A stretch of 64,000 nt of DNA. Origin: Thiolapillus brandeum. Its GTDB lineage: Bacteria; Pseudomonadota; Gammaproteobacteria; Chromatiales; Chromatiaceae. Where the stretch lies: positions 3,019,001 to 3,083,000 of the forward strand of contig NZ_AP012273.1 in NCBI RefSeq assembly GCF_000828615.1, read 5' to 3'. The notes under the pieces were generated by a model. The model did not search any database, was not told the DNA's origin, and was given only the letters and a program-made list of their open reading frames with translations. Shown piece by piece: positions 8,791 through 30,514 of this stretch. Each line of letters begins with the position of its first letter. Within the stretch, counting starts at the first letter, position 1. Made by a program: the position numbers and the translations under genes.

Positions 8791-9612
8791 TCAGAACAGT
8801 GATGCGCTCAGTTCATTGACTGCGGAAAGCATATCCGAATCATCCGTGAGCGCCTGGGCGATGGCACTGCGGCAGGCAATGACGGGGGACACATCCGCCA
8901 CCATGAGCTTGGCCGCGTGCACCAGCAAACGAGTGGAAGCGCCTTCATCCAGTCCCTGGCCCTTGAGGTTCCGTGTCATCCGGGCGAATTTCACCAGTTG
9001 GCGGGCCATCTGGCTGTCGATACCAGACTCTTTCTCTACGATCTTCTGCTCAAGGGCAGCATCAGGATAATCGAACTCCAGGGCCACGAAGCGCTGACGG
9101 GTGGATTGCTTGAGATCCTTGAGCACCGATTGATAACCCGGATTGTAGGACATGGCCAGACAGAACTCCGGTGGCGCTTCCAGCAGCTCCCCCACTTTTT
9201 CCATGGGCAGCACCCGGCGGTCATCCGCCAGGGGGTGAATGACCACGGTGGTATCCTTGCGCGCCTCCACCACCTCATCCAGGTAACAGATACTGCCATT
9301 GCGCACCGCCCGGGCCAGGGGGCCGTCCACCCAGATGGTTTCTCCACCACGCACCAGAAAACGCCCCACCAGGTCGGAAGCGGTGAGATCATCGTGGCAG
9401 GACACCGTGATCAGGGGCAGTTGCAGCCGCCATGCCATGTGCTCCATGAAGCGGGTCTTGCCGCAGCCCGTGGGTCCCTTGAGCAACACGGGCAGACCAT
9501 TTCTGTAGGCCGCCTCGAAAACGGCGATTTCCTCTCCGAGGGGTTCGTAATAAGGCTCCTCGGTAAACAGGTACTCTTCCGGCGTCAAAACCCGGGCGTG
9601 ATGATGGGTCAC
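8791..9612 (-). CDS. cbbQ: CbbQ/NorQ-type AAA+ ATPase (MoxR family)
   Basis: 273 residues from a GTG at 9612, chosen because GAGGA lies 5 bp upstream and the length fits CbbQ (about 270); a longer frame from 9687 has no ribosome site. Walker A is [10 protein letters not shown] (about residues 44-53) and Walker B ICYLDEV (about 107); sensor and arginine regions follow ([31 protein letters not shown]). CbbQ with CbbO remodels inhibited Rubisco; NorQ and GvpN are close relatives. Placing it as CbbQ is based on overall resemblance. No cbbO or Rubisco gene is visible here, which leaves the client open. It diverges from the qmo operon. Confidence 0.8.
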
Positions 9613-15177: not shown

Positions 15178-15792
15178 CTATCTCAATGGCTTGAGCTTAT
15201 TGGCGCCTTGAAAAGGAAAACGGTAACCGATACTGCAGTAGTTGACACCTGTACAATCTCCGGCCTTGATACAATCCGAGTAAGGCGAGGAGTCCCCTGA
15301 GAATTGTGGTCCCAAACTATCGAAAGGAGGATATATTGTTGAAGCGACAACATAGTAATTGTATATCGAGTTGTCAATCCCGCCAGATACTATCCTGCTG
15401 GTGCTTAGAAATTGATACTGAGCAAGACCTGTCGGTTTGTTCCCAATTAAGGGGATATCAGTACTGAAAGCCGATTCAACAACAGCCATATCCACATTCG
15501 CTTGTTGTGGCTCATTTCTACGCAGTGCAAACCGTACCAGAGTGCCAGCCTTTGGATGGCCACCACACTTGAATAAGGTCACAACAGAACCATGGGGAAT
15601 GTCAACAGGAGCAAACATCAACCCGGAGAACGATCGTGCTGTTCCCGACTCATTGCCTGTATAGCTCCCCGTTTGACTGTCCCGCACCGAGAAAGCGGCA
15701 GCAGGGATGGATACAAAACCGAATGTATCTGCAGTGGTTACAGACACATTGCCCAACATATACAGCATCGCGATAAACCTGAATGTTCTCAT
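15178..15792 (-). CDS. Secreted hypothetical protein
   Basis: 204 residues; AAGGA lies 8 bp before the ATG. A signal peptide covers about residues 1-21 (FIAMLYMLGNVSVTTA-D). The mature part is beta-rich with GTARSFSGLMFAPVDIPHGS and FKCGGHPKAG, suggesting a beta-sandwich, and a C-terminal Cys-rich stretch, DCIKAGDCTGVNYCSIGYRF. Five Cys in the mature protein suggest disulfides. The family is not recognised. It converges on the qmo terminator and has no evident operon partner. Confidence 0.65.
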   Translation of the reverse strand: MRTFRFIAMLYMLGNVSVTTADTFGFVSIPAAAFSVRDSQTGSYTGNESGTARSFSGLMFAPVDIPHGSVVTLFKCGGHPKAGTLVRFALRRNEPQQANVDMAVVESAFSTDIPLIGNKPTGLAQYQFLSTSRIVSGGIDNSIYNYYVVASTIYPPFDSLGPQFSGDSSPYSDCIKAGDCTGVNYCSIGYRFPFQGANKLKPLR

Positions 15793-16169
15793 GTCAAAGA
15801 TCCTTTTTTAGTAATTAATACAAACGCGCACCAGCAACTTCCTCCGGCAGCCCCCTGGAGCAGGCAGAGCATGGGCGCGAAACCCGTAGCAAAATCCTTC
15901 ACGACGACAATGACATCCGTACTTCTGGTCATAGGTGGACATTCAGGTTCCTCCATCCGTCTGAAGTGCCGCCACCAACGCCCGGGCAGATTCACCCACC
16001 GGTCTGACTCCCTGTTCTCCTGCAAGCCAGCAATCACTGCAAATGTCTGTTACCCATGAATTTGGACAGAACTTGGCCGTTTGTGCTACATGCATCAGTA
16101 TAGACGGCAGAATCTGATCGGATTCAAAAAACGGGGAAATACACGGGACCGGGGGAAGTCAGTAAGGAA
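15793..16169. other. Intergenic region, partly duplicated upstream sequence
   Basis: The right part, from about 16,020 onward, is a diverged copy of 29,320-29,473, the sequence before the intact paralogue (shared CCCATGAATTTGGACAG, TTGTGCTACA and AATACACGGGACCGGG). The left part has no recognisable gene or site. Confidence 0.6.
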
Positions 16170-16629
16170 ATGTCGCTACGAGGCATGAAACTGCATCTGG
16201 CATTGCTCGCCATGGCCAGCTCTTCCGGCTATCTGCTCTTTTGCCAGGCCTCTGAGAGCCCGGCCATGGACATCAATCAGAATCTGGCGCACTGGAGCCG
16301 CTTCGTGGTCAAGGCGCCCGCCAGGTTCTTTGCCCCCTCTGCCGCTCCTGGCAAGGGGAGCACACTTCCAACGGCCCGAACCAGACTCAAGGACAAGCCA
16401 CCGATCCTGCTTTCGGGCCATAAGAACACCGTATACTCTGTTGCCCTGTCACCAATGCAATGCCCAGGGAACAGGCTCCGGTTCAAGCCCCCTCGGTCTC
16501 GCCTCAGGCAGACGTATTGAATCCCGGCATCGAAGATCAGATGGCACAGGCTGAAACAACCTTGAGCTTGTCCTCCGACAACACGGCGATGGAGACAGCG
16601 CCGGGTTTGGCTGCAAATCCGACAGACTA
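16170..16629 (+). pseudogene. Truncated, frameshifted copy of the secreted protein at 29,474
   Basis: The first ~95 codons (MSLRGMKLHLALLAMASSSG) match the intact gene at 29,474-30,514 almost residue for residue. At 16,454-16,463 a tandem AATGCAATGC replaces a single AATGC in the intact copy, a 5-bp duplication that shifts the frame and leads to a stop at about 16,518. DNA similarity continues out of frame to about 16,605 (ATGGAGACAGCGCCGG), then ends just before the stop of the 14-heme cytochrome gene. About 210 codons of the C-terminal part are missing. Same strand as the intact copy. Confidence 0.85.
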
Positions 16630-19233
16630 GTGAAGATAATCCGGTTTCTTCCCCCTTCCGGCGGCATCGTGGTAATACTTGTACTTGAGTTTGGCCTCCC
16701 TGCCATGGCAGTTCACACAGAAGCTTCCGGCCAGATCCTCACGGCGCAGGAAACTGCTCTGCACCGTGCCTTCCTCATTACCCCGGTCATCCTTGCGCAC
16801 ACCCTGGGGGGGGTTGTTGCCCGGGCGCCAGTGATGGGGTTCATGGCAGGTGATGCAGCCGATACGCCCGAATTCACTGATCTTGCCCTGCTCATCCAGC
16901 AGGGGCATCTTTTCCACGTCCGAACGCAGGATCAGGTCCTTCCAGGGATGACTGAAGTCTTCCACGGGTTTAGCGTCCACCTGGTTGCCTTCATGGTGGC
17001 AGCTCAGGCACAGGACATCCCGCAGTGACAGATCCCGTTTGTCATCCACCTGCCAGGCCGCTCCCACGAACAGGAAGGGTTGTTCCCCCTTGCCACGGTG
17101 CAGGCTGTGGCAGGCCCCGCAGAGGCCGGCATCCTTCCAGGGTGCTTTGAGCCGGTTCCGGTGCGCCGCAGGGTGTTTGCCCAGATCGTGATCCGTGTGC
17201 CGCAGCTTCTCCTGTTCCTCGTGACAGGACTTACACAGCGTCCCATCCGCGTGATCCGCCACCAGCGCGGGCGTTCCCTGCACGCCTTCATGCACCGAAT
17301 GGCAGCTGCGACAATCCAGTTCCCGGATCTCCCGTCCCGCCAGCTTCACCGGATCATCCAGCCGGGTATTCACGGGATGGACGCCTTTTTTCAGGGCGTC
17401 TTCCTTGTCCCTGGCATTCTGGCGCCCGTGGCAGGCCGGACACAGACTCCGGGCATTCTTCCCTCGGGGCAGCAGGGCCGTGCCCGGCTGGGCATCATGC
17501 ACGGAATGACAGGCCAGACAATCCACCCGCCTGATCGTTTTGCCGCCCAGTTCCACTTCCTCGTCCAGTTTCAGACCCACGGGATGCACACCCTTGCGAC
17601 GGGCGTCCTTTTCGTCCCGGGAATGCTGGGCCTGGTGACAGGTCACGCACAGCCGGCTTCCTTCCTGCTTCGCCGCCAGCAGGGGTTCACCTTCGGCGCC
17701 ATGAACCTGGTGACAACTCTGGCAAATGAGCCGCCCCTGCGTGCCCAGGCGGGCGCCGGCCTGCTTCAGGGCATCCGGCAATCCCTGTTGCAGTTCCTCC
17801 CAGGCCGCGTAGCCAGCCGCGGCCTTTTTTGGCGGGCGTTTCATGATCACGCCCAGGGGATGATTCAGTCTCTCGATGTCCTTACGTTGGCGGTCTTCAG
17901 CGGCCGTGCGCCGGGAAGCATGACAGTCCAGGCAGAGGGCGCTATCCCGGTTGGCCTTGCGCAGCCAGGGGTTGCTGCGTTCCGCCCCCAGGGGCTCGCC
18001 CCCTTCCGGCCGGTCATGGGGCGTGTGGCAGCTGGCGCAGTACAGGCGCCTCTCTCCGGCCAGGGGATAATCTTGGGGCACCTCGTCTTCCTCGAAGCGT
18101 TGCGCATCCCCTGCCGGTTTGCCGTCCCGCGCTTCATGCAGGGTGGGATGCTGATGCCCCTGTCCCAGGCGTGGACGTGAATCCACCACGGCGCCGTGAT
18201 GACAGCTCAGACACATGCGCGGCTCCGCCACGGGCAGCACCGGCGCGTCTGCTTCCGGCACATGGTCCGGCGACCAGGACACATGGCATTGCAGGCAGTT
18301 CCTGCGGGAATCCCGGGACGGGCCGCCTTGGGGCAGCGGGGGCGCGGGCCGGCCATCATCGGTCAGGCGCAACACTTCCACCCGGTTGGACTGGAGATCC
18401 ACTACATACAATCTGTCTTTCCAGCGCGTCATGCCCACGGGCATGGCGAAGCGCCAGGGACGTCCATCCCTATGGCGCAGCAACCCCCGCGCCTTGCGCT
18501 GCCGGAACAGGGTAAGGCTGCCCGTCCAGGCATCGGACACCAGCACTCCGCCGTCTTCCAGCACGGCAATGCCATTGGGCCGGAAAAGTTGGCCGGGCAA
18601 CAGACCGAATCGACCCATGCTGCCGGAGAACTTTCCGTCCGGCGCGAATAGCTGCACCCGGGCATTGAGCACATCCACGGCCAGCACATAGCCCCTGGCG
18701 TCGGCGGCCAGCATGTAGGGATAGCGGAAACGGCCGGGCATTTCTCCCTGCCCACCCTGGCAGCGGGTGGACCGGCCATCATCCAGTTGGCTTCGGCACA
18801 GGCGGTGTCCGCGGCGGTCGCTCCACCAAAGCTGTTTTTGGGACACCAGCAGGGCCGAAGGTTCCACGGTTCTTTCATCCGGCCGGGGCAGAAGCTCATC
18901 GAGCAGGCGGCCCTGCCCATCCAGAATGAGGATGCGATGGGCGGTAGGATCGGCCACATACAAGCGCTCCCCCTGGATGGCAATGTCCGTGGCCGGCATG
19001 GTCCCCGGCGGCAAGGGCAGGCTGTCCCGCAGCGCGCCCCTGGGGTCGAACACCTGTATGCGCCGTTGCAGGCCGTCCAGCACGAAAGCGCGCCCGTCTT
19101 CGGCCACAGCCACGGCGGAAGGCTGCTGCAAACCCCCTTCCAGACGCATGAGCGGGGCTCCCACCAGGGCCGCCAGAACCGGAGCCGCGGGCACAAGCAA
19201 CAGACAGCACAGCAGCAGGCGTTTCAGCATCAC
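16627..19233 (-). CDS. 14-heme cytochrome c with N-terminal NHL/beta-propeller
   Basis: 868 residues. Signal peptide at about 1-22 (LLLCCLLLVPAAPVLA). Residues about 25-290 contain repeated NHL-type blades (PSAVAVAEDGRAFVLDGLQR, ATDIAIQGERLYVADPTAHR, PNGIAVLEDGGVLVSDAWTG) forming a beta-propeller. The rest holds 14 CXXCH heme sites, from CLQCH at about 314 to CVNCH near the C-terminus, with many spaced in pairs and HPV/HPL histidines between them that could be distal ligands. Exported by Sec and matured by the Ccm system. Last gene of the multiheme locus; its start overlaps the triheme gene stop by 4 bp. A propeller-cytochrome like this may bind a partner or surface; role inferred as electron transfer. 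Confidence 0.9.
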   Translation of the reverse strand: MMLKRLLLCCLLLVPAAPVLAALVGAPLMRLEGGLQQPSAVAVAEDGRAFVLDGLQRRIQVFDPRGALRDSLPLPPGTMPATDIAIQGERLYVADPTAHRILILDGQGRLLDELLPRPDERTVEPSALLVSQKQLWWSDRRGHRLCRSQLDDGRSTRCQGGQGEMPGRFRYPYMLAADARGYVLAVDVLNARVQLFAPDGKFSGSMGRFGLLPGQLFRPNGIAVLEDGGVLVSDAWTGSLTLFRQRKARGLLRHRDGRPWRFAMPVGMTRWKDRLYVVDLQSNRVEVLRLTDDGRPAPPLPQGGPSRDSRRNCLQCHVSWSPDHVPEADAPVLPVAEPRMCLSCHHGAVVDSRPRLGQGHQHPTLHEARDGKPAGDAQRFEEDEVPQDYPLAGERRLYCASCHTPHDRPEGGEPLGAERSNPWLRKANRDSALCLDCHASRRTAAEDRQRKDIERLNHPLGVIMKRPPKKAAAGYAAWEELQQGLPDALKQAGARLGTQGRLICQSCHQVHGAEGEPLLAAKQEGSRLCVTCHQAQHSRDEKDARRKGVHPVGLKLDEEVELGGKTIRRVDCLACHSVHDAQPGTALLPRGKNARSLCPACHGRQNARDKEDALKKGVHPVNTRLDDPVKLAGREIRELDCRSCHSVHEGVQGTPALVADHADGTLCKSCHEEQEKLRHTDHDLGKHPAAHRNRLKAPWKDAGLCGACHSLHRGKGEQPFLFVGAAWQVDDKRDLSLRDVLCLSCHHEGNQVDAKPVEDFSHPWKDLILRSDVEKMPLLDEQGKISEFGRIGCITCHEPHHWRPGNNPPQGVRKDDRGNEEGTVQSSFLRREDLAGSFCVNCHGREAKLKYKYYHDAAGRGKKPDYLH

Positions 19234-19952
19234 TCCAGCAGATCCCGCAACTGGATACGCACCACGGGATCATCCGGCGATTCGGGTTCGGTGCGCTGCA
19301 GGAACCGGGCAATGGGATTGTCCCGCAGCTCTTTGACACGCCCACGCTCGTAACCCAGGGCCTTCCAATCCAGCAGGCTGTCCTTCCCGTCATGGCAGGC
19401 GATGCAGTCCGGCCCCTTTTCCTCAAGGGGCTGGTGCAGGCGGGCCTTGATGTTCACCCGCGCCGCCTTGTCTGCCTGCTCCCAGTCCCGGGCCAGGCGC
19501 CGCACCCAGGGTTCTTCGGCCAGGGTCACCACCGGTTTTCCATCCACCAAGGGCGCAATGAGCCCCTCTGCCACAGGCACACCCGGCACCCGCACACGCC
19601 CGTAGTCCAGGGACATGCCCTCAGGCTGCCAGTGACAGGTCTCACAGGCAATCCACCGGCCATGCATGTTCAGAAAGGCCCGCTTGCGCGGGTTGCGGCG
19701 ATGGGGCGCCCGGTCATGACACTGGAGACAGAGAACGGCGGGCGCTTCTATTTCCGCTGATCGCTGGTGAAAGGGCGGCACGAACAGGGGCGCTTTCCGG
19801 GGCTCGGCAGGAGGATGATCCAACTGTTTGCGGGCCTGCTGCAGCGCCTCATCGTCCACCCTGGCCGAATCCACCCCTTCGGTGTAGGGATTGGCCGCCA
19901 CCATTGCGGAAGCCAGGCCGATGGCGCCGGCAAGGATCCATGATTTCATCAT
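19230..19952 (-). CDS. Triheme cytochrome c
   Basis: 240 residues with a signal peptide (cleavage near VAANP, about residue 21). Three CXXCH sites: CLQCH (about 75), CETCH (about 104) and CIACH (about 183). No second domain recognised; the segment between hemes 2 and 3 is free of Cys and rich in charged residues. It overlaps both neighbours by 4 bp, so it is translationally coupled to the polyferredoxin-multiheme gene and the 14-heme gene. Probably a periplasmic electron carrier or an assembly subunit for one of its neighbours; this is inferred from position. Confidence 0.85.
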   Translation of the reverse strand: MMKSWILAGAIGLASAMVAANPYTEGVDSARVDDEALQQARKQLDHPPAEPRKAPLFVPPFHQRSAEIEAPAVLCLQCHDRAPHRRNPRKRAFLNMHGRWIACETCHWQPEGMSLDYGRVRVPGVPVAEGLIAPLVDGKPVVTLAEEPWVRRLARDWEQADKAARVNIKARLHQPLEEKGPDCIACHDGKDSLLDWKALGYERGRVKELRDNPIARFLQRTEPESPDDPVVRIQLRDLLE

Positions 19953-22129
19953 TGCGCTTTCCTCCCGTTGCCGGACGCCGGTTTCCTGCTCCCCTTGCGG
20001 CGGGGCATCTCCAGCATGCGCTGGCGGAACCTATCGCCTCCCAGGGCGGAATAGACCTTGCCCTTCACCGGCTTGCCGAACAGGCTGCCCAGCAGCCACA
20101 GCAGCAACATCCCCCCCGTGAGCAGGGCCAGCACCAGCAAGGCCCGGCTCCAGGCCGATTCCCTGTCGAACTCAGCGGGAAAACCTGGCGCTTCCGTTAC
20201 CCGCGCCTCCAGCAGCAGCGGCGCCAGATCCATGTCATGCATGTCCGTGTGGAGAAAACCTTCATTCCCGGCATGGGCGGCAAATCCATGACATCCCTGG
20301 GCGGCGCAGGTCTTGCCCAGTTCGTCTTCATGGGTGGATGCACCGGGCTTTTCGTCTTCCTGAATGCGGTGATGCAGACCGGCCGGGGCATGGCAATCCA
20401 GGCAGGAAGCGCCGGCATCCCGGCCAGCGGCAATGAGCCGGCCATGCAGGGTGAGGTCGTAACTGGCATTGGCCAATACGAAACGGGCATCGGCCGGTTC
20501 GGGGGGCTTGCGCCCGGCTTCCCGTTTTACCTTCTTCATGCGTTCCCCGTCGGCGTGGCATTTCGCGCACATGGCGTTACCCTCGGCCTTGGTCCAGCGC
20601 CCGCCCAGCAGGCGGCGCACAATGTGGCCGGTAAAGCGTTCCCGCCACCCATCATCCTTGTGGCAGTTGCCACAGGCCTCATCACTGTGGGCAAAGAGTT
20701 CGCGAAACCGGGGCATCTGCACTTCACTGATGTAACCGGTATTGCTGTGACACAGGCGGCAGGAAGGGCTGGCGTCCTTTTCGGACTCTTCCAGCCGGTT
20801 GCCGCCGGTGAAGCCCTTGCGGCGGCCCTTCCCGTGAACGGAAGCGTCCATTTCCTCTGCCACCTCCTTGTGGGTGTAGGCCGAGCCCTCCGACGGCTCC
20901 TCGATATGACATTCGGCAGCGCAACCCACTCCCTTGTCCTCTTCATGGGGAAAGCGGCGGATGCTGGCATGGCAGTCACCACAGGGAACATTCCCGTGCA
21001 GGGAGGCCCCATAGTGCTTGCGGTCTATGGTCAGGTTCCGGCGCAGGCCCTTGTCGTCCACGAAGGCGAATCCGGGCAGGGCATGGCAAACCAGGCAGCC
21101 GTCCGGATCATTCTGTTGCAGCGCCGCACCTGCCGTGCGCGTCCACAGCAGCAGTCCCGCCAGCAGCACCAGGGTCAGCAACAGCACCCGGCGGGTGGTG
21201 ACGAAACCCTTGCGCGGCTTGTGCAGGGCGATCCACTCCGGCAAGGGATGGAATTCCACATCCTTCTTCTTGCGCTTGTGCTTGATCTCCGGGGGCACCG
21301 TGAGCCAGTCGATGGCGCCCCAGTCACAGACATCCGCGCACTCGTGGCAGGACATGCAGGAAAGCTGATCCACCACGGCGATTTTGTCCACCATGGTGAT
21401 GGCGCCGCACATGCACTTGCGGGCGCATTCGTTGCAGCCGGTACAGCGATTGCGCTCCACGCGGATGCGGCGGGTGAAACGGAAGTGCGAACCCAGGCGG
21501 TTCACCAGGGCATCGATGGCCCCGATGGGACAGAGAAAGGAACAGTAGGCACGCCCCTTGTTGGCGAACACGCCCAGGAGGAGCACCAGCCCCAGGTTCA
21601 CCATGCCCACGGTGGTCACCAGGAAGGCCACGCCCCGCCAGTCGCCACTGAAGGCCTGAAAGATGCGTGGCACGGTGATGAAGTTGCACAGGGTACAGGC
21701 ACTCACCCCCAGCATGGGCATGAGAAACACAAAGGTCAGGAAGTAGCCGTAGCGTATGGGCACCTGGGGCAACCAGCGGTATTCCAGCTTCCAGCGCTCC
21801 CCGGTGATGCGGCTGGCCAGTTCGGGCACCCCGCCCATGGGACAGATGTAGGCACACCAGATACGCCCGAAGAAGAAAGTGGTGACCAGGATGAACAGCA
21901 TGAAGCCCGCGCCAATGGCGGCCACGCTGATCTGGTTCAGCAGATCGTCCCAGCTCATGCCGGGGAAATAGAGATAGAAACGGCGCATGCACAGGGGGCC
22001 GCACAGATCCGGGTTGCCGAACAGGGAGGGAATCAGGGTGAAGGGCGCAAGCAGCAACAGGGCCGACAGCACCATCAGCGTATAGCGGTATTTCTGCCCG
22101 GCGGGTATGTTCTTCAGTCTGTCAAACAC
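19949..22129 (-). CDS. NapH-like membrane ferredoxin fused to a multiheme cytochrome domain
   Basis: 726 residues. The N-terminal ~300 residues have several membrane helices and the NapH/CcoG-type motifs WCAYICPMGG and YCSFLCPIGA, then a two-cluster ferredoxin (CTGCNECARKCMCGA, CMSCHECADVCDWGA). NapH-type proteins take electrons from quinol. A further helix at about 310-335 leads to a periplasmic multiheme part with six CXXCH sites (CLVCH, CGDCH, CRLCH, CGNCH, CAKCH, CLDCH) plus one CX3CH (CAAECH) and one CX4CH (CAAQGCH). A last helix lies near 675-697. The protein therefore combines quinol oxidation and heme export of electrons in one chain. It starts 131 bp downstream of the 6-heme gene, across a REP-like hairpin. 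Confidence 0.88.
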   Translation of the reverse strand: MFDRLKNIPAGQKYRYTLMVLSALLLLAPFTLIPSLFGNPDLCGPLCMRRFYLYFPGMSWDDLLNQISVAAIGAGFMLFILVTTFFFGRIWCAYICPMGGVPELASRITGERWKLEYRWLPQVPIRYGYFLTFVFLMPMLGVSACTLCNFITVPRIFQAFSGDWRGVAFLVTTVGMVNLGLVLLLGVFANKGRAYCSFLCPIGAIDALVNRLGSHFRFTRRIRVERNRCTGCNECARKCMCGAITMVDKIAVVDQLSCMSCHECADVCDWGAIDWLTVPPEIKHKRKKKDVEFHPLPEWIALHKPRKGFVTTRRVLLLTLVLLAGLLLWTRTAGAALQQNDPDGCLVCHALPGFAFVDDKGLRRNLTIDRKHYGASLHGNVPCGDCHASIRRFPHEEDKGVGCAAECHIEEPSEGSAYTHKEVAEEMDASVHGKGRRKGFTGGNRLEESEKDASPSCRLCHSNTGYISEVQMPRFRELFAHSDEACGNCHKDDGWRERFTGHIVRRLLGGRWTKAEGNAMCAKCHADGERMKKVKREAGRKPPEPADARFVLANASYDLTLHGRLIAAGRDAGASCLDCHAPAGLHHRIQEDEKPGASTHEDELGKTCAAQGCHGFAAHAGNEGFLHTDMHDMDLAPLLLEARVTEAPGFPAEFDRESAWSRALLVLALLTGGMLLLWLLGSLFGKPVKGKVYSALGGDRFRQRMLEMPRRKGSRKPASGNGRKAQ

Positions 22130-22181
22130 GTTCTTCTCTGAGTTCCTGTCGAATTGTCAGCGATTTTTCCTGTCTGCCTTT

Positions 22182-22210
22182 CCTGTAGGAGCGGCATTGC
22201 ATGCCGCAAA
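22182..22210. repeat. REP-like hairpin inside the multiheme operon
   Basis: TGTAGGAGCGGCATTGCATG continues to a palindrome, GCGGCAT-TGC-ATGCCGC (22,191-22,207). The 5' part resembles the TGTAGGAGCGG head of REP repeats found between genes in gammaproteobacteria. It lies in the only sizeable gap (131 bp) of the leftward operon. It could act as an mRNA stability element or partial terminator. Confidence 0.6.
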
Positions 22211-22260
22211 CAATCCTGCTTCCGTCCCGCTCGTGGCACATAGCACCCCTTCCATGCACT

Positions 22261-23142
22261 TCAATCATTGAATTGGTGACAGGCCCGGCACAGACTGCCG
22301 TCCGCCGCGGGAAGGCGCACGAGCACTTCCCCGGCCAGGCGCTTGTAGTCCAGTTCCACGGGTTCTCCCGACTTCCTTTCCAGTTCCATCAGGCGCGCTT
22401 CCTTGTCCGCCTGGTAAACAGGGCTCCAGCGGCTGGGCTGGTAGTCCGGACCCTCCTCGACCGAACGGTCCGCCGCCTGACGTCCAGCCGGGTGTCCTTC
22501 ATCGATCACCCCCTTTTCATGGGGACTGTGACAGGTCACGCAGGTGACCTGCCCGTGATCGCCCAGTGGCAGGATGACCTTGTGAGTCTTTTCCGCTTCA
22601 CGTATCCGTTGGCGCATCTTCTCTTCCGGCTTGCGGCTGTGTTCCAGCGCATTCAGATGGGGCGTCTTCAAGTGACACCCCAGGCAGATACGATCCACCG
22701 GCAGACGCAGCTTCAATTCCCTGCGTTTCGGGGGATGCTCCCGGTCCGGCACCTCGCGGTGGCAATACTTGCAGTTCTCCTCCCGCAGCTTTCCCCGTTC
22801 ATCCAGCTGGGCGTGAATGTTCAGCCGCTGATACGGCTTCTCGTCATGACACTGGAAGCAGAAATCATCCCGCTTCTGCCAGGGGCCGCCGCGCAGAAAA
22901 TCATCGGCATGACGCCGGCGTATCTCCTCGATGTCCTCGCGCTTCCGGTCTTCCAGTTTGTCGATGCCATGACAGGTGGAACAGGTCAGCCGTCCCTTGT
23001 CGTCCGCCTGCATGCCCTGTGGCAGTGTCATGGTGCTGGGCACCTTCACCCCCACAGGATGGTGACGCGAAGACAACTCCAAAGCGCCGGCAGAGGGCAG
23101 GCAGGCCATGAGCATGAGCATGAGCAGCAGCATGACGCGCAT
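22261..23142 (-). CDS. Hexaheme cytochrome c
   Basis: 293 residues from the ATG at 23,142, one base after the upstream stop codon; the longer frame upstream overlaps a real gene. Signal peptide MRVMLLLMLMLMACLPSAGA. Six CXXCH sites: CSTCH, CFQCH, CKYCH, CLGCH, CVTCH and CRACH, with an irregular spacing and basic linkers (KLRLPVDRICLGCHLK). The protein has no domain beyond the heme-binding fold visible to me. It is translationally coupled to the octaheme gene. Likely periplasmic electron carrier; the exact partner is unknown. Confidence 0.88.
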   Translation of the reverse strand: MRVMLLLMLMLMACLPSAGALELSSRHHPVGVKVPSTMTLPQGMQADDKGRLTCSTCHGIDKLEDRKREDIEEIRRRHADDFLRGGPWQKRDDFCFQCHDEKPYQRLNIHAQLDERGKLREENCKYCHREVPDREHPPKRRELKLRLPVDRICLGCHLKTPHLNALEHSRKPEEKMRQRIREAEKTHKVILPLGDHGQVTCVTCHSPHEKGVIDEGHPAGRQAADRSVEEGPDYQPSRWSPVYQADKEARLMELERKSGEPVELDYKRLAGEVLVRLPAADGSLCRACHQFND

Positions 23143-23143
23143 C

Positions 23144-24076
23144 TCAAAGCCCGGCCTGCCCCGCCTGCCCATGGGCATGGCAATCACGGCAGCCGCCGGT
23201 GGCCTGGTGCACACCGGACAGGCCGTTGCCTGTATCCGTTTCCGAATCCCGTCCTGCCCTGTCCATTCGATGGCAAAGTACGCAGAGCTGGGCGTACTGA
23301 CCTTCCTCCCCTGTCCATACGGGCACGGCAGCCAGTCCCAGGGTAGGGTCCAGTTGGGACGCGCCCTTGGCGGCCCGGTCGATGAGCAGGCCTGTGTTTT
23401 CCGTGCCGTGCATGGCATGGCAGTCCGTGCAGTCCACGCGGGAGCCATAGGCATAGCCTTCCCTAAGCCCCTGGTAGGTGCCATTGCCGCCAACACGATG
23501 GCCGTGGTAGTCGATAAAGCGGTAGTTGTCTTCCATGGCCACCAGGGGGTCACGCCAGTCCCTGTCTGGCATCTCGAATCCCGGAATCGGGTGATCACGG
23601 TTGTGGCAGCGCAGGCAAAAATCGGCATTGGAGAAATAGGGCGTGGGCCGCTGGTGGGCGTCGGGGAACAGGGTCAGGTCCTGCTGCCTCTCGAACTGGC
23701 CGTCCATGTCGGCATTCCGGTGGCAGGTCACACATTCTTCGTCCAGGCTCATGCCGGCGAAGTCATGGCGAAAACTGCCGTCGCGGTGCGGCAGGGCCGG
23801 AAGATCCCTGGGGTTGTGACAGATCACGCAGGGACGTTTCTTTTGCGTGCCATTGCTGCCATGGCAGCCCATGCAACTGGCGTATCCCTTGTCACGCACC
23901 ATGCCGCGAATGCCTGCCGCAGGCTTTCCCTGATGGATGCGAGGCAGGGGATGGCAGGCCGCGCACTCGGCCTGCTTCCAGGCGGAGCCGTCATCGCCGT
24001 GCCTGGGCGTGAGCAGCAGGCTCCCGCCATGGACGCTGTTTGAAACAAACAACAGGATGAACAACCATCGCTTCAT
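23144..24076 (-). CDS. Octaheme cytochrome c, periplasmic
   Basis: 310 residues from ATG 24,076 (GGGAG upstream; the start overlaps the preceding stop as ATGA). Signal peptide MKRWLFILLFVSNSVHGG. Eight CXXCH sites: CAACH, CMGCH, CVICH, CVTCH, CLRCH, CTDCH, CVLCH and CRDCH. Heme density is one per 37 residues. It resembles the soluble multiheme proteins that link inner-membrane quinol oxidizers to outer-membrane porin conduits. No CXXCK motif, so no sign of a nitrite-reductase-type catalytic heme. Confidence 0.87.
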   Translation of the reverse strand: MKRWLFILLFVSNSVHGGSLLLTPRHGDDGSAWKQAECAACHPLPRIHQGKPAAGIRGMVRDKGYASCMGCHGSNGTQKKRPCVICHNPRDLPALPHRDGSFRHDFAGMSLDEECVTCHRNADMDGQFERQQDLTLFPDAHQRPTPYFSNADFCLRCHNRDHPIPGFEMPDRDWRDPLVAMEDNYRFIDYHGHRVGGNGTYQGLREGYAYGSRVDCTDCHAMHGTENTGLLIDRAAKGASQLDPTLGLAAVPVWTGEEGQYAQLCVLCHRMDRAGRDSETDTGNGLSGVHQATGGCRDCHAHGQAGQAGL

Positions 24077-24669
24077 GGGCCAATCTCCCGGTGGCAGTCG
24101 AAACAGTAGGACGGGTTGTGGCAGCTGCCGCACTGGGCAGGATCCATGCGCGCTTCCAGGCCGTGGGAAAGACGGTAGCCCGGCCCATGCTTGCGGCGCG
24201 TGGCGGCATCGCGGCGAAAGTGGCAGTCGATGCAGTCTTTCAGGTCCAGATGGCAGCTTTGGCAGGCCTTTTCATCCCTGGTCGCGTCCGGGCCGTGGAG
24301 GCGCACATAGTCAAAATCATGATTCCGGGGCCAGATCTTCTTCGGATCGGAATGACAGAGCCGGCATTGCGCGGGGGCACTGCGGTCCTCCACGTGGCAG
24401 GAATGGCAAATGGCCTTCAGGGGTTCGTTGGCCACCAGGGCCAGGGCTGCCGCCCGTTCCGGATTCGTCTCTTCGATACCCTTGAAGGGGTGGCAGGCCA
24501 GGCAGCTGACACCACTGGTTTTCATCACCTCGTCATGGGCCTTGTGGGGAAAGTACAGATCCGGTTTCTGCTGGCTGCGTTTTTCCCACCAGCGTTCCTG
24601 TTCCGGCTTTTCCGCGGCGCCCAACTGCACACAGAAACAGGCCAGCAATATCACCAGCAGCCGCCTCAT
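24073..24669 (-). CDS. Heptaheme cytochrome c (MtrA-like role inferred)
   Basis: 198 residues from ATG 24,669, which overlaps the porin gene stop (ATGA). Signal peptide at about 1-18 (LLVILLACFCVQLGAA). Seven CXXCH sites: CLACH, CHSCH, CRLCH, CQSCH, CIDCH, CGSCH and CFDCH, one per 28 residues. FPHKAHDEVMKTSGVSCLAC has the distal-His style of cytochrome c7/MtrA repeats. It is directly coupled to the beta-barrel gene, the arrangement typical of a cytochrome that inserts into a porin. Function inferred from the order. Confidence 0.88.
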   Translation of the reverse strand: MRRLLVILLACFCVQLGAAEKPEQERWWEKRSQQKPDLYFPHKAHDEVMKTSGVSCLACHPFKGIEETNPERAAALALVANEPLKAICHSCHVEDRSAPAQCRLCHSDPKKIWPRNHDFDYVRLHGPDATRDEKACQSCHLDLKDCIDCHFRRDAATRRKHGPGYRLSHGLEARMDPAQCGSCHNPSYCFDCHREIGP

Positions 24670-25952
24670 CGGTAGTCCTCCGCGCCCCTGGCAGGCAGCT
24701 GGTAGATCAGCCGCAGGCCGAAACGCAGCTGATCGTAGTCCTCCGGTCTTCCCCGGGAACGGGCCAGTTCCAGCATGCCACTGAGGTGCAGGTCCCGGGT
24801 CCACATCCAATCCAGGCGCACTTCCCCGGCCATCACCGAACGGCTGCCATCCAGATGGCTACGCTCATCGCGCAGGGCGCCGTTCACCGCCAACAGCAGG
24901 CGCGAGTTCAGGGGGCGCTGGTATCCCAGATACAGCCCTCCGGTGTGTTCATCATCACCCCCCAGCCAATCTGCCCGACCCTGCAGCAGGCTTCCCTGGT
25001 CCAGTTGCCAGTCCAGGGACAGATCCAACCCGGCGCCTTCCACGCCCTGCTCCCGGGCAATGCCCCGCAGGCTGCCACCCCAGGTGATAGGCACATCCAT
25101 CTGCTGCCGGTAACCGGCTTCCAGCACGGTCTGCCAGCCCCGGGCGTAATAGCGATAGAACCTGTCTGCGAAAGTGGCGCTGCGATCCGGCGGATCGTAT
25201 CGCCTTCCCCGCAGCCACAGCTGGCTCTTCCCATCCAAAGGCAGGCTGGCCTGGACATCGAAGCTCTCGATGAAACCGTCACGGGTATCCAGCACCAGGC
25301 TGGCGTTCAGGGCCACGGGAGGCCGGTCTCCGCCCGGCAGCCAGTTACCGGAAAAACCGCCATCCAGTTTCATGGTATCCACCCCGGAAAAGTGATAACA
25401 CGCCCCCAGTGACAACCGGGCCTGTTCAAAGCCGCCCAGGGCCAGGGCACGGGACAGGTTCAACCCAGCCAGATATTTGCTGTCCGGCCGGTTCACGTCT
25501 TCATCCCGGTGCGGGATGACGTATTGCCCGGCACGCCCGGGCTTGCCGATGAAAATGCTCCAGCGCATGCCCGAATCGACCTGCCAGCGGGCCTCCAGGC
25601 CATCCAGGGTATAAAAGCCCGCCGCATCGATACGCTCGAAACGGCCGGCCTTTGCGCTCAGACTGTTTTCAAAGAACGGTTTTTCCACAAACAGGCGATG
25701 GAGGTTCATCCAGCTTTCGTCACTGGAGGCTCCCCAGTTGCCCAGCAGGCCCCAGGTCACGCCCTCATCCCGGCGGCGGTAGTCCAGGGTCAGCCATTGT
25801 TCCAGGTAGTTGCCCGGATCGAAATAGCTGTCCGACTGGAAACGGGTTTCCAGACTGCCGCTGAGGGCCGCCCGGGCCGGCAGCGCCCCTGTCGCCAGAG
25901 AGACACACAGCAGAGCCCGCAGGCCGGACAGGAGGCTTGGCAGACCCGTCAT
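24666..25952 (-). CDS. Outer-membrane beta-barrel protein (porin of a porin-cytochrome complex)
   Basis: 428 residues from ATG 25,952, chosen because it opens a clear signal peptide (MTGLPSLLSGLRALLCVSLA, cleavage after ARA). The rest alternates strands with aromatic girdles: GSLETRFQSDSYFDP, YLEQWLTLDYRRRDEGVTWG, LYLGYQRPLNSRLLLAVNG, ending in a barrel-like LRFGLRLIYQLPAR. No Cys heme sites. It is shorter than MtrB/PioB proteins (600-700) but the locus context, next to a heptaheme gene, suggests a porin-cytochrome sheath. Alternatives are an unrelated porin or adhesin. Confidence 0.8.
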   Translation of the reverse strand: MTGLPSLLSGLRALLCVSLATGALPARAALSGSLETRFQSDSYFDPGNYLEQWLTLDYRRRDEGVTWGLLGNWGASSDESWMNLHRLFVEKPFFENSLSAKAGRFERIDAAGFYTLDGLEARWQVDSGMRWSIFIGKPGRAGQYVIPHRDEDVNRPDSKYLAGLNLSRALALGGFEQARLSLGACYHFSGVDTMKLDGGFSGNWLPGGDRPPVALNASLVLDTRDGFIESFDVQASLPLDGKSQLWLRGRRYDPPDRSATFADRFYRYYARGWQTVLEAGYRQQMDVPITWGGSLRGIAREQGVEGAGLDLSLDWQLDQGSLLQGRADWLGGDDEHTGGLYLGYQRPLNSRLLLAVNGALRDERSHLDGSRSVMAGEVRLDWMWTRDLHLSGMLELARSRGRPEDYDQLRFGLRLIYQLPARGAEDYR

Positions 25953-25960
25953 GAGACCGT

Positions 25961-26182
25961 TCAGGCATCCCGCCCCGAACCCGGCGTCCTGTTCCTGGCC
26001 CACCACAGCGCCCAACCACCAAGGCCCACCAGCGCCGCCACGCAACCGCCACAGGCGGAACAATGACCGCTGCGCGCCACGGAGCAGCCACTGCCGCCAG
26101 CCAGGGCAATCTGGGACAGGGCCATGCCCGCCCCCAGCGCGGCCGCCTGCAGGCTCCTGCGTCTTTGGTGTTTCGCTTTCAT
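25961..26182 (-). CDS. Small Cys-rich membrane protein
   Basis: 73 residues; GGAG lies 7 bp before the ATG. A signal/anchor segment (QAAALGAGMALSQIALAGGS) leads to a Cys-rich stretch, GCSVARSGHCSACGGCVAAL, with CX2CX2C-type spacing, then a second hydrophobic segment VGLGGWALWWARNR and a basic tail. It sits between the 926-residue octaheme gene and the barrel gene, 8 bp before the latter. I do not recognise a family. The Cys could bind a metal cluster or serve in heme or disulfide handling; both are guesses. Confidence 0.6.
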   Translation of the reverse strand: MKAKHQRRRSLQAAALGAGMALSQIALAGGSGCSVARSGHCSACGGCVAALVGLGGWALWWARNRTPGSGRDA

Positions 26183-26236
26183 GGCAAACTCCGGAAAAAG
26201 CCCCCGCTCTCATGGAGCGGGCGCAGGCCTGTTTGA

Positions 26237-29017
26237 TCAGTTGCCACAGCTTTCCGGCAGGGCACAACTGGCCACGATGGCGCCCTTGCGGTCGGCAATG
26301 GCGAAATGACCCAGGCCCGTGGCCCGGGCGATGACATAACCGGCCAGGCCGTCATGGGCCGGCTTCACCGCCAGGATGTCGCCGGAGCCCAGGTTGTCCC
26401 AGGCGGTGCCGTCCACGGAGGCCAGCAATTGCAGTTTGTCAGGCGCATTCATACCGCCGCGGTAGGGCAGAACGATCAGCATGTCCACGTCCAGCAGATT
26501 GCCGATCACGTCGCCTTCCGCGTTGATCACTTCCAGCACCACCAGATCTGAAGCCAGCTTGCTGCCCTTGTCCGCGGCGCTTTCCGCCGCCTTGGCAACC
26601 GCCGCATCTTCCACCAGGCCCGCCCGGAAGCTGGTGTAGGGCATGATCATGTCCAGCAGAAAATCGGATGCGGTCAGGATACTGACACCCCGGATGGGCG
26701 CCACACCGTAGTTGGGCCGGAAGATATAGCTGTCTTCGCCGCCCAGCGCGTTCATCACCCGCTCGCGATGCTTTTCATCCCAGATGCCGGCGGTATTCAT
26801 GGCCTTGATAGCGGTTACCCGGCGGGCCTGGCCACGCTGGGAAGGTGCGATCTCGTTGTTCAAACGGGTCATGGAGGGATTCACCAGGGTGTAGTAAAGA
26901 ATGTCCTCCACGCTCTCCGTGACACGGCCTTCCTCGTCCACCTTCATGTAGGGCAGATCCAGAACCACCAGGCCGTCCTCCACCATCTTTGGATCAGGCA
27001 GAGTGGTGACTTCCTTGACGTTGCCGGAACCGAGAATGCTGTCCGGCGCCACCAGGGAGCTGATCACCCCGTTCTGCTTGCGCCTGTGGCAGCTCTCGCA
27101 CTCCAGCGCCTCGGCGGAAGGCCGGGTGTTGTGGGACATGAGGTAGTGGTTGATCTCGGTCCAGACCAAGGCCACGTCGGGATTGCTCACGCCCTTTTTC
27201 GCCAGCAGCTTGTCATAGATTTTTTTCAAGGCGGCAAAGCCTTCATAGGTGTCCGGATCACTGTAACGCAGGCTGCCATGGGAATAGCGTGCCGACACTT
27301 CCAGCACCACTTCGCCGGTATCCGGATCCTTCACCTGGCCCACCTTGCTGCCATCATCCTTCACCAGGTATTCGAACACGCTGTTGCGCTCGGTCTTGGT
27401 GAGCACGCGGTCACTGTTCTTGTCCTTCCAGAAATAGCGGGCGCGCGGGTTGTAGGGGCTCATGCGCAATTTGCCGTCTTCCTCGCGGCGATACTGGTAG
27501 AGTATCTGCAGGTCGCGTCCCCGGTTCTTCTTGTTGGTGATATGGCAGGCCTGGCAGGACACTTCATCCAGGTGGGTCCGGGTGATGCTCTCCAGCTCAT
27601 CCTTTGCATAACCGCGCAGATCACCACCGGACTTCCACAGGGCCAGGTGGGCTTCCTTCATGTTCTTGTGTCCTGAAGGTGATACGGGTTCCGGCCCGGT
27701 ATCATGGCAGTACATGCAGGACTTGGCCTTGGGCTGGTAATCACGATGATCGGCCAGGTTCATGTCCGAGTTGCCCTTGAGGAAGTTGTGGTCCGTGTCC
27801 AGGTCCACGTTCACCCAGGGTTGGCGATAGTAGTTGCGCGCATGGCAGGCATTACAGGTGCTGATTTCCCGGGACTCACCATTGGCCTCGGTGAACACCT
27901 TGCCGTAGTGCACGTCGTCCTTGTAGTCATCGACCAGCATGCCTTCCTCGTCATAGACGGCCGAGGCGTCTTCCCCAAAGCCATAGAACCCCCGGCGGGA
28001 GTTGCTGGTGCGGTGACACTGCATGCAGTTGTCATTGGGCGGGAAGCCCATCATGGGAATGGACACCTTGCCGTTCTTGTCGAAGGCCGCCGGGTTCCAT
28101 GTGAGCCTGGGATTGCCATTCTTGTCCAGGTCCAGCTCGTACTCGATGTCCTTGCCACGGCGACCCTCTTCGATGGTGATGTCCTTCTTGGCCACGGTGA
28201 CCAGGTTCATGTCCTTGTTCACACCATCCGGATGCCGGATGTTCAGGTATTCCAGCATCGCCGTGGCGTTGTAACGGAAGAAACCGTTGTCGATGAACTT
28301 GTAACGGCGCAGGGTTCGCCACAGGTCGTATCCATCCGGGCCGTCTTCGACACTCAAGCGCTTGTCGAAAACCTGTAACCGCCCCTGATCGACATGACAC
28401 ATGAGGCAGTCGTTCTCCACCACGCCACTTTTCTTCCAGTCCCATTGGGACACTACGCTGTCGTCGGCCGGCTGGTTGTTGGAATCCGTGCCCCGATTGT
28501 AGTAGTCACCGTCGAAAGGCTTGACGGTATCCGGATCGACTTCATCATAACGGCGGCCCTGACGGTCCTTCTCCATCCAGCCGCCACCACTGTGGCACCC
28601 CTCACAGCGCTGGATCCATCCGGCCGTGCCCTTGTCTGCAAAATCAGCGACAGAGGCATTGTTCTTCCTGGCCAGCTGATCCGGATTGTTGCCGCCCATG
28701 CAGGCGTAGCCACCGAAGTAGCCGGGCCCCACAAGCTGGGGAAGACCGATTTTCTTTCCAAAGTCGTCATCGGTTTCGTCCCTGCCCAGCTCCATGTGGT
28801 AGGAATGGGTGATGGACTCATAGTCGTGACATTGACCGCAGCTGGTGCGGGGGCTGTAGGGCTTCCCGCTCTTGAGGACATTGGCACCCGATTCATCCAG
28901 CAGCGGAATGGCCGGATGCAGTTTTTCCTCGTCCACAAGCTGCCCCCAGGCGGGAGCGGTCAAGGCGGCGCAGGCTACCATCAATGCCCCTGCAGGCATT
29001 TGCCGGATCGTTTTCAT
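26237..29017 (-). CDS. Large octaheme cytochrome c, probably outer surface
   Basis: 926 residues from ATG 29,017 (GGGGAAA upstream); the longer frame upstream lacks a ribosome site. A signal peptide (MPAGALMVACAALTAPAWG) precedes the mature part. Eight CXXCH sites are spread over about residues 45-700: CGQCH, CEGCH, CLMCH, CMQCH, CNACH, CMYCH, CQACH and CESCH, with large non-heme insertions between. The last ~220 residues have no heme site and look like a beta-rich binding domain; a final CALPESCGN pair may form a disulfide. First gene of the leftward operon. Position next to a porin and size suggest the outer-surface terminal protein. No lipobox is convincing (LMVAC is weak). Confidence 0.85.
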   Translation of the reverse strand: MKTIRQMPAGALMVACAALTAPAWGQLVDEEKLHPAIPLLDESGANVLKSGKPYSPRTSCGQCHDYESITHSYHMELGRDETDDDFGKKIGLPQLVGPGYFGGYACMGGNNPDQLARKNNASVADFADKGTAGWIQRCEGCHSGGGWMEKDRQGRRYDEVDPDTVKPFDGDYYNRGTDSNNQPADDSVVSQWDWKKSGVVENDCLMCHVDQGRLQVFDKRLSVEDGPDGYDLWRTLRRYKFIDNGFFRYNATAMLEYLNIRHPDGVNKDMNLVTVAKKDITIEEGRRGKDIEYELDLDKNGNPRLTWNPAAFDKNGKVSIPMMGFPPNDNCMQCHRTSNSRRGFYGFGEDASAVYDEEGMLVDDYKDDVHYGKVFTEANGESREISTCNACHARNYYRQPWVNVDLDTDHNFLKGNSDMNLADHRDYQPKAKSCMYCHDTGPEPVSPSGHKNMKEAHLALWKSGGDLRGYAKDELESITRTHLDEVSCQACHITNKKNRGRDLQILYQYRREEDGKLRMSPYNPRARYFWKDKNSDRVLTKTERNSVFEYLVKDDGSKVGQVKDPDTGEVVLEVSARYSHGSLRYSDPDTYEGFAALKKIYDKLLAKKGVSNPDVALVWTEINHYLMSHNTRPSAEALECESCHRRKQNGVISSLVAPDSILGSGNVKEVTTLPDPKMVEDGLVVLDLPYMKVDEEGRVTESVEDILYYTLVNPSMTRLNNEIAPSQRGQARRVTAIKAMNTAGIWDEKHRERVMNALGGEDSYIFRPNYGVAPIRGVSILTASDFLLDMIMPYTSFRAGLVEDAAVAKAAESAADKGSKLASDLVVLEVINAEGDVIGNLLDVDMLIVLPYRGGMNAPDKLQLLASVDGTAWDNLGSGDILAVKPAHDGLAGYVIARATGLGHFAIADRKGAIVASCALPESCGN

Positions 29018-29473
29018 TGTTTGTTTTCCCCTGGTTGATTCTGGGCCTGCCTGGAACAGGCCCACGGTCTTCAGTATCCCTGGGGATAAGCAACTTCGAT
29101 GCCAATCATCAGAATTCCATAATATCAACAACTTGTGAAAAACCTGCCACGCCTGGAATGCTGCAATGGCGCCATATGCCACACACACAAGGGGGAAATG
29201 ACACAGCTCGGATTATTGTCCAGTCTGGTGTTTGGCCCGGATGAATCAAGGGGCCACCTGTTTTCTGTTGTCACCTCGATACCATCCTTGAATTGAATTC
29301 CCTTGTCGTAGCTCATGCCCACGCAGTGCAAACCGGCCATCATTGCGAAGGGCTGTTGCCCATGAATTTGGACAGGACTTGGGCGATTGTGCTACAAATG
29401 CCAATACAGACGTCGGAATCCCATTGGATTCGAAGAACAGGTAAATACACGGGACCGGGGGGTCAGTAAGGAA
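29018..29473. promoter_or_regulatory. Divergent upstream region of the multiheme operon
   Basis: 456 bp between the leftward multiheme operon and the rightward secreted-protein gene. Near the cytochrome start there is a perfect hairpin GGGCCTG (29,043-29,049) with CAGGCCC (29,057-29,063), which could lie in the 5' UTR. From about 29,320 the sequence is paralogous to 16,020-16,169. No promoter pair is called with confidence; no ORF supported. Confidence 0.4.
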
Positions 29474-30514
29474 ATGTCGCTACGAGGCATGAAACTGCAT
29501 CTGGCATTGCTCGCCATGGCCAGTTCTTCCGGCTATCTGCTCTTTTACCTGGCCTCTGACACCCGGGGCGTGGACATCAGTCAGAATCTGGCACACTGGA
29601 GCCGCTTCGTGGTCGAGGCACCCACCAGGTTCTTTGCCCCCTCTGCCGCTTCTGGCCAGGAGAGCACACTCCCAACGGCCCGGATCAGTCTCGGGGACAA
29701 GCCAGCGATCCTGCTTTCCGGCCATAAGAACACCGCACACCCTGTTGCCCTGTCATCCATGCCCGGGGAACAGGATCCGGTTCAGGCCCCCTCGGTCTCG
29801 CCTCGGGCAGACACATTGAATCCAGGTATCGAGGATCACATGGCACAGGCTGAAACAAGCTTGAACCTGTCCACCGATAGCATGGCGATGGAGACAGCGC
29901 CGGTTCCAGCCGCGCCCTCCCGGCCTTCCGCCGCAACCCTTGTTTCAGCAACCCGGAGTTTTCCTCAGGAGCCTGCCACCTTTATGGATACCAGCTTGCT
30001 GGTAACCCAGGCCGGGGGAGAAAACGCAACAGATCGTGGGCGGTTTTCCGCATCCGGCTACCCATCCCCGTATGCTGAGGAGGAAGACCGGCTGAACAAT
30101 CTGCTGCAATCGGACACCACTGCGGGACGGGTTTTGCCGGGCGACTCTCTGGGTGATGAAATCAACCTTGCCGCACGGGTCTACATATCCAATACCGCAG
30201 ACCTCCAGTATCCGGCCAGCCTGGGATTCGTGGTGCAGAATCCTGATACCGAACTGATGATCTATGCCTTGGCATCCAGGCTCAATACCCGTCGCCTGGC
30301 TACGCCCGGCCTGCCTCCCGCACTGCAGGTCTATGATGCCAATGGAGAGCTTGTGGCCAGTAGCGATCCCCTGCAACAGAATCAGGAAGGCGATCCGGCT
30401 GTAGTCCATGTGTTCCCTCCAGGCGCCTACCGGGTCGTCGTCTCAGCCGCCCGGGGCAGCGCCGGCGAGGTCATCATCGGCGTCAAGGATTACTATTCCG
30501 TGGAAGTGGAGTAA
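29474..30514 (+). CDS. Secreted protein with C-terminal PPC-like beta domain
   Basis: 346 residues from ATG 29,474; a second ATG at 29,489 (MKLHLALLAMASSSGYLLF) is an equally good start. N-terminal signal/anchor segment, a low-complexity middle (about 60-190) rich in Pro, Ser and Ala, and a C-terminal domain (about 235-345) with NLAARVYISNTADLQYPASL, LGFVVQNPDTELMIYALASR and GAYRVVVSAARGSAGEVIIG, which looks like the PPC or related extracellular beta-sandwich fold. The truncated copy at 16,170 is its pseudogene. Role unknown. Confidence 0.75.
   Translation: MSLRGMKLHLALLAMASSSGYLLFYLASDTRGVDISQNLAHWSRFVVEAPTRFFAPSAASGQESTLPTARISLGDKPAILLSGHKNTAHPVALSSMPGEQDPVQAPSVSPRADTLNPGIEDHMAQAETSLNLSTDSMAMETAPVPAAPSRPSAATLVSATRSFPQEPATFMDTSLLVTQAGGENATDRGRFSASGYPSPYAEEEDRLNNLLQSDTTAGRVLPGDSLGDEINLAARVYISNTADLQYPASLGFVVQNPDTELMIYALASRLNTRRLATPGLPPALQVYDANGELVASSDPLQQNQEGDPAVVHVFPPGAYRVVVSAARGSAGEVIIGVKDYYSVEVE

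Follow-up and report, generated by a model that had tools for sequence, protein, structure and literature searches.

Do the multiheme cytochrome genes clustered in the chromosome of Thiolapillus brandeum encode a route by which electrons leave the cell, and has such a set of genes been seen before? The window examined (64,000 nucleotides, positions 3,019,001 to 3,083,000 of contig NZ_AP012273.1; G+C content 58.0 %) includes nine open reading frames on the minus strand at 16627–29017, named here A to I in the order of transcription. Seven encode multiheme cytochromes (A, D, E, F, G, H and I, with 8, 7, 8, 6, 6, 3 and 14 heme CxxCH sites, respectively, making 52). A 53rd CxxCH, located in the ferredoxin domain of G, is outside this heme count, and G has two further heme-type sites, one CX3CH and one CX4CH. 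When the residues of the seven cytochromes were shuffled, a mean of 0.31 CxxCH and a maximum of 3 were obtained in 500 trials, compared with the 53 observed. The original prediction, made from the sequence alone, was of 52 sites, seven cytochromes, an outer-membrane barrel and a small Cys-rich protein on one strand, and this was confirmed from the reading frames and motif counts. Its description of starts and stops as mostly overlapping was correct for four of the eight junctions, which overlap by 4 bases, but at the remaining junctions the genes are separated by 1 (E/F), 8 (B/C), 54 (A/B) and 131 (F/G) bases.

The operon is probably a single trans-envelope conduit that would carry electrons outwards, from quinol to the cell surface, when O2 or nitrate is short. 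At the inner end, G (19949–22129), in which a NapH-like membrane module is joined to a domain with eight hemes, would take electrons from the quinol pool, its two Fe-S clusters facing the cytoplasm and its heme domain the periplasm. The putatively periplasmic cytochromes E (23144–24076, octaheme), F (22261–23142, hexaheme), H (19230–19952, triheme) and perhaps I (16627–19233, NHL repeats and 14 hemes) would deliver them to D (24073–24669), a heptaheme cytochrome of 198 aa proposed to lie in or under C (24666–25952), a 428 aa protein predicted to form a barrel of outer-membrane type. Electrons would then cross the outer membrane to A (26237–29017), a 926 aa octaheme protein proposed as the terminal, cell-surface component, and from A they would reach an outside acceptor, for example another cell, humics or minerals of Fe(III) or Mn(IV). 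The conduit would probably serve as an electron outlet for the oxidation of sulfur or, in methanotrophs, of methane.

The original prediction took the gene set to be one not seen before. This was not borne out, as it matches the MCA0424–MCA0433 operon of Methylococcus capsulatus Bath, for which the available parts of the paper by Larsen and Karlsen describe a putative operon of eleven genes starting at MCA0424, with eight multiheme cytochromes, 58 CxxCH, a barrel (MCA0427) and a sigma-54 site (PMC4831470). According to the same text, the octahemes MCA0424 and MCA0426, which are orthologues of A, were recovered from the cell surface and were up 4.8- and 8.6-fold in low-copper cells, and outward electron transfer was put forward as highly plausible (PMC4831470). 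Both traits are known from M. capsulatus alone; by analogy with these orthologues, A of the window may be a surface protein. In the parts of their paper available, Tanaka et al. report that M. capsulatus produces anodic current and reduces ferrihydrite, both to a greater extent if the cells were grown at low copper (PMC6281684).

The comparison was made via the Texas strain of M. capsulatus (L094), where the order is A, B, A, C, D, E, F, G1, G2, H, I and the eleven genes include 59 CxxCH, one in the NapH-like gene, leaving 58 heme sites in eight cytochromes. Upstream of A, this strain has a sigma-54 type site that falls within the one published for Bath, and we have taken the two operons to be the same. 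The window shares the gene set and its order on one strand, as well as a sigma-54 site of consensus level, just at the threshold, upstream of A. It differs in having nine genes, 52 CxxCH and seven cytochromes, with one A and a fused G, and in its host, a sulfur oxidizer rather than a methane oxidizer. The eleven genes and 58 CxxCH were treated as a variant number, not as a defining trait. Directly upstream of the Texas operon (L094, bases 2004–9382), where Bath has MCA0421 and MCA0423 of the c553o family, there are two large genes with 9 and 8 CxxCH.

The A gene was detected in 12 of 147 genomes of the order, 7 of 321 in a sample of the class and 1 of 398 in a sample of the phylum, the T. brandeum genome being counted each time; it was the sole match in the phylum sample, which was searched with a profile from a 54-row A alignment and whose genomes had not been selected for sulfur or methane oxidation. 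Scanning named genomes yielded 155 candidates, 107 of them confirmed, and 79 loci were kept from the best 80. These come from genomes labelled Sedimenticola, Venteria, Halobeggiatoa, Parabeggiatoa, Thioploca and tubeworm symbionts, and many are from unassigned Gammaproteobacteria and Methylococcales. C and D were present in 53 of the 57 loci with more than 2.5 kb after A, and the full order A-C-D-E-F-G-H-I (B not being required) in 36 of the 41 named loci with more than 8.5 kb after A, belonging to Chromatiales, unassigned Gammaproteobacteria and Methylococcales. This conservation of genes and order rules out an artefact confined to the window. The barrel turning out to be an unrelated porin, an outcome that the original prediction had set against itself, did not arise, C and D following A as described.

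Of the 41 loci, L047, L086, L108 and L111 lack the last one or two genes in the available stretch, and L066 (Candidatus Halobeggiatoa) has the octaheme gene alone, the 9.9 kb downstream of it containing neither the barrel nor any other cytochrome of the operon. L090, L105 and L114 have no C and D. The full order is absent from all five Thiotrichaceae loci (L047 runs from A to G, L066 has A alone, and L063, L069 and L075 are too short to tell). Relatives of Beggiatoa are not found among the 36 full-order loci, and Venteria reaches from A to G. In L115 (Methylococcales), C, D and E are on the opposite strand to A, which is the single clear departure from the operon order.

The distances of seven parts of the operon correlate at 0.78–0.95 (35 rows), and the parts may have been inherited together, a correlation that is obtainable from shared ancestry alone. 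The rows kept in the alignments, with the window counted, were 14 of 20 for the first A alignment and 54 of 74 for the second, 63 of 64 for C, 31 of 58 for B and 37 of 59 for D; near-copies, one fragment and two sequences with a stop had been dropped from the 14-row A alignment, in which the relatives are 41–90 % identical. In a quick tree of 54 A proteins, which carries a long-branch warning, 31 rows were set apart with 100 % support in the Shimodaira–Hasegawa-like approximate likelihood ratio test (SH-aLRT), comprising Chromatiales, Thiotrichales, unassigned Gammaproteobacteria and one labelled Acidobacteriota, while the methanotroph rows formed several branches. Operons were also present in metagenome-assembled genomes labelled Acidobacteriota and Desulfuromonas (L070 and L096), and these are likely mis-binned, since their A proteins are beside gammaproteobacterial rows with 100 % support. 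Carriage of the operon by a virus or plasmid was rejected, as A had no match in plasmids and no confirmed match in a pattern-based scan of viral contigs.

The barrel claimed in the original prediction was borne out by an AlphaFold2 model of C (63-row alignment; predicted local distance difference test score, pLDDT, 86.6; predicted template modelling score 0.77), which has 22 predicted strands. Its statement that the combination does not match the Mtr or Pio loci was also supported as far as the barrel family is concerned. The Mtr/Pio barrel family, which we take to be PF11854, was not among the Pfam matches of 63 C homologues at E 0.1, all of which were weak (DUF7840, DUF5872, MipA, DUF2490 and others), and no solved chain matched the C profile at E 1. 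In a Foldseek search with 359 matches at E 0.001, the closest folds among the 50 listed were pilus ushers and substrate porins, and MtrB was not among these 50. The MtrB barrel has 26 strands. The profile of D gave weak c7 matches only in the PDB (best E 0.13); 17 of 37 D homologues matched a c7 model, the window D being below the cut-off, and TIGR03508, the DmsE decaheme model, was not matched by any of the 37 at E 0.01. A decaheme of the MtrA/DmsE type was not found, I with its 14 sites being the sole operon protein with ten or more.

With MtrCAB, PioAB and MtoAB the operon shares a barrel, adjacent multiheme cytochromes and, putatively in the window, a large outer multiheme cytochrome, as well as weak DmsE-family matches of E and F, but the barrel has no Mtr/Pio family match and 22 predicted strands, and D is a 7-heme protein with no DmsE match. 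Membership of the Mtr/Pio group was rejected on the barrel families, the folds and the D profile; on the other side are the TIGR03508 matches of E, F and H, at 23.5–30.5 bits against a cut-off of 192.2. As far as anatomy can tell, the operon resembles a porin-cytochrome conduit and is a variant of that kind. A Methylobacter bioanode cluster, from a Methylococcales member with sulfur-oxidation genes, is likewise a proposed conduit, but the available text describes a decaheme MtrA/DmsE, a porin of MtrB/PioB type and two monohemes, with no outer multiheme homologue, and it was rejected as the same system, being of MtrAB type (PMC13322032). It is quite possible, though we would stop short of calling it probable, that the operon represents a separate class of conduit with its own barrel, cytochromes, four-Cys protein and sigma-54 switch, found as a 12-kb unit at differing sites mainly in sulfur- and methane-oxidizing Gammaproteobacteria, and that a cultured sulfur oxidizer would respire solid acceptors with it.

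The pattern of potential heme ligands was examined in alignments from which matches shorter than 75 % of the query length had been dropped, leaving 25 rows for G as split genes were lost. Beyond the His of the motifs, D has 7 further invariant His for its 7 CxxCH (56 rows), F has 6 for 6 (49 rows) and H has 4 for 3 (39 rows), while E has 8 for 8, conserved at 0.89–1.0 (55 rows). F also has a seventh His column at 0.76, where the window has Ser. In G, nine His in addition to those of the eight heme motifs are conserved at 0.96 or more. A, with its eight hemes, has seven further His conserved at 0.97–1.0 in the named relatives; the eighth ligand could be His71, present in 61 of 76 rows, or His580, present in 50, with at least one of them in 72. 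I, whose relatives with the gene whole have 12–18 hemes, is too variable for ligand assignment. Hemes with two His ligands are typical of electron carriers. In D, E, F and H there is a conserved additional His for every heme, and in A for seven of the eight. This pattern favours conduction over catalysis, and one open site in A would be compatible with it.

Hydropathy also speaks for the conduit, hydrophobic N-termini being detected in C, D, E, F and I by a hydropathy threshold. LMAC near the N-terminus of F could be a lipobox. I has NHL, Paired_CXXCH_1 and MtrC/MtrF II/IV matches. G has a Fer4_5 domain and six hydrophobic segments, with the heme domain between those at about 310–333 and 663–681, and is split into two genes in many relatives. 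The NapH-like membrane module of the original prediction is supported, residues 42–272 of G matching the NapH model TIGR02163 with E 1.2e-18, a clear local match that at 67.5 bits is below the family cut-off of 213.05. In contrast to the NapGH quinol dehydrogenase, there is no NapG, and G is fused to the 8-heme domain and a last hydrophobic segment.

Candidate regulatory sites recur upstream and downstream of the A gene. In the window, a promoter-like site of sigma-54 type (TGGCATCGAAGTTGCT, 29089–29104, minus strand) starts 87 bases upstream of A and agrees with the consensus at 10 of 12 positions, which was the threshold used. Of 60 loci, 21 have a site of this type ahead of A, compared with a mean of 0.4 and a maximum of 2 after shuffling, and terminator-like hairpins directly after A in 27 of 60, compared with a mean of 2.3 and a maximum of 5. 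The 60 sequences in each count are related, so the counts are not independent; single bases were shuffled 50 times for the sigma-54 sites and dinucleotides 20 times for the hairpins, with one threshold each. The window hairpin, which has a T-run and lies between A and B (26203–26221, minus strand), is not unusual alone, 13 terminator-like sites being present in the region where 10.7 were expected. From the recurrence of the hairpin we infer that the surface protein A may be made in excess of the conduit. The recurrent sigma-54 promoter-like site and the recurrent terminator-like hairpin after the octaheme gene are new, as are an invariant four-Cys protein and the differing chromosomal sites of the operon in sibling genomes.

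The four-Cys protein is B (25961–26182), a small hydrophobic protein of 73 aa. Its four Cys (C33, C41, C44 and C47, spaced C-x7-C-x2-C-x2-C in the window) are invariant in 31 of 31 rows, window included, and lie between two hydrophobic stretches, the second of which alone passes the hydropathy threshold. No Pfam family was above cut-off for the window B. It was read as a small membrane protein, and an Fe-S cluster on the four Cys would be a guess.

Several points weigh against an outward conduit of this form. The acceptors given for the T. brandeum isolate, in the parts of the paper available, are O2 and nitrate (PMC4136832). D is a short protein whose family assignment is weak throughout, and which cytochrome partners the barrel C is unsure, as the DmsE-family match is weak and is in E (30.5 bits against 192.2), not in D. 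One heme of A could be open and its eighth ligand is not fixed; four of the 76 A rows have neither His71 nor His580, and while two of these have His46, the other two have none of the three. No segment of A or H is above the hydropathy threshold, and their export signals were read by eye. In M. capsulatus, the gene deleted in the available account, MCA0421, is a c553o-family gene upstream of and outside the operon, its loss lowered the current only from 118 to 86 nA/cm2, and no growth on Fe(III) was seen (PMC6281684).

The alternative that survives best, though we consider it unlikely, is that the conduit runs inwards and supplies the quinone pool or oxidases with electrons taken from a partner cell, solid sulfur, iron sulfide or Fe(II). 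Conduits of multiheme proteins can work in either direction, but NapH-type modules are quinol oxidizers in known systems, and uptake does not sit easily with the fact that methane oxidizers have the operon too. Cells of the isolate are pictured adhering to elemental sulfur in the available part of its description (PMC4136832), which would suit uptake, whereas M. capsulatus, with orthologues of these genes, gave outward current on formate according to the text seen of PMC6281684.

A slightly less likely alternative is an enzymatic role for A, similar to that of octaheme tetrathionate reductase, with the operon feeding a soluble acceptor outside the cell or in the periplasm. Residues 330–510 of A weakly match TIGR04315 (E 6.4e-7), at 28.7 bits against a cut-off of 375, and A was rejected as a member of that family. 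The AlphaFold2 model of A (54-row alignment; pLDDT 83.9) found nothing in the PDB at E 0.001 or better with Foldseek, and its best matches, both weak, were the ankyrin ZU5 domain (1.8e-3) and the Shewanella octaheme 1sp3 (2.7e-3; probability 0.89; template modelling scores 0.14/0.26). The likeness to 1sp3 and TIGR04315 is one of part of A, which is twice as long. The heme that may have no second His would suit an enzyme, but CxxCK is absent from the nine operon proteins, seven further His are conserved for the eight hemes, a periplasmic enzyme needs no barrel, and the M. capsulatus orthologues were on the surface, as reported in the text available (PMC4831470). An orthologous cluster tied to a soluble acceptor, named in the original prediction as grounds for abandoning it, was not found in a limited search of literature available in part. 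Least probable is a role in metal handling, in which the conduit would reduce extracellular metal ions such as Cu(II) or Fe(III) so that they are taken up or detoxified, not respired: the M. capsulatus operon is up at low copper and in the text available has a putative Fur box and is clustered with TonB-family genes (PMC4831470), but trace metals would hardly warrant the cost of 52–58 hemes plus a membrane quinol module, none of the nine operon genes in the window has a Pfam match to a TonB family, and the regulation would be explained equally by a respiratory outlet that needs no copper.

If the outward conduit is correct, two large groups of microbes thought to be users of O2 or nitrate share a hidden electron outlet, and the assignment of sulfide and methane oxidation in oxygen-poor sediments and vents would change. 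Sulfur oxidation by the host, presumed in the original prediction, is well supported by dsrA in the genome (567.8 bits, above the family cut-off) and by QmoB/HdrA-like, HdrC-like and HdrB-like genes, so named from their domains, just before the operon. The host is probably the cultured isolate, which makes a direct test possible. The words 'heme' and 'iron' do not occur in the main text of its description (PMC4136832). No report of such a locus in sulfur oxidizers was recognised in a limited search of literature, some of it available in part. A survey of multiheme clusters includes the Riftia endosymbiont among its test genomes in the portion seen (PMC11475568), and its supplements may hold a cluster of the window type. 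A 2025 paper on sulfide oxidation and iron oxide predicts, in its available text, routes of Geobacter type and MtrCAB; Sedimenticola, Thiolapillus, Beggiatoa and Methylococc- are not present in its main text (PMC12545173).

The operon is flanked by a direct repeat, 80–90 % identical, with copies at 16021–16604 and 29327–29903 (plus strand). The right copy is the 5' part of an intact gene with no Pfam family (29387–30514), and the left is a truncated 5' part of the same gene. In the siblings G077 and G112, the intact repeat gene is directly between hdrB and a histidine kinase gene with no operon there, their operon being located on other contigs. G021 and G089 have the operon at a further site, where it is bracketed on the A side by an NtrC-type regulator, identified from a motif, and on the I side by a histidine kinase, Pfam-supported in G021. 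The four siblings with the operon are drafts of 60–280 contigs, and A was not found in G093, G094 and G110. At least three settings are therefore present in the genus, next to the duplicated gene in the window, cytochrome b561 genes in G077 and two-component genes in G021 and G089. The repeat would fit entry of the operon by homologous recombination of a circle; no integrase was found among the genes between the copies. The NtrC-type regulator is not adjacent in the T. brandeum genome, where the best homologue, 67 % identical, is at a far site, and three siblings without A carry a homologue at 61–65 %, so the regulator was used for no inference.

In G077 (L014, 10475–12327), the operon adjoins two genes for cytochrome b561, of which one is a fusion with a dihaem cytochrome c domain; a search of the T. 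brandeum genome for the neighbours of the G077 operon, made without a positive control, found nothing. The sibling draft G112 has a second, partial copy of A at a contig end (L003 and L013), and both copies are 86 % identical to the window A. Between hdrB and the truncated repeat copy in the window, an open reading frame of 204 aa (15178–15792, minus strand) has no Pfam family and a low G+C content at third codon positions (0.46); the DNA match with G077 and G112 ends at 15158, before this frame. A trypsin-like protease with a PPC domain (32763–33956, minus strand) is found beside a two-component pair near the operon.

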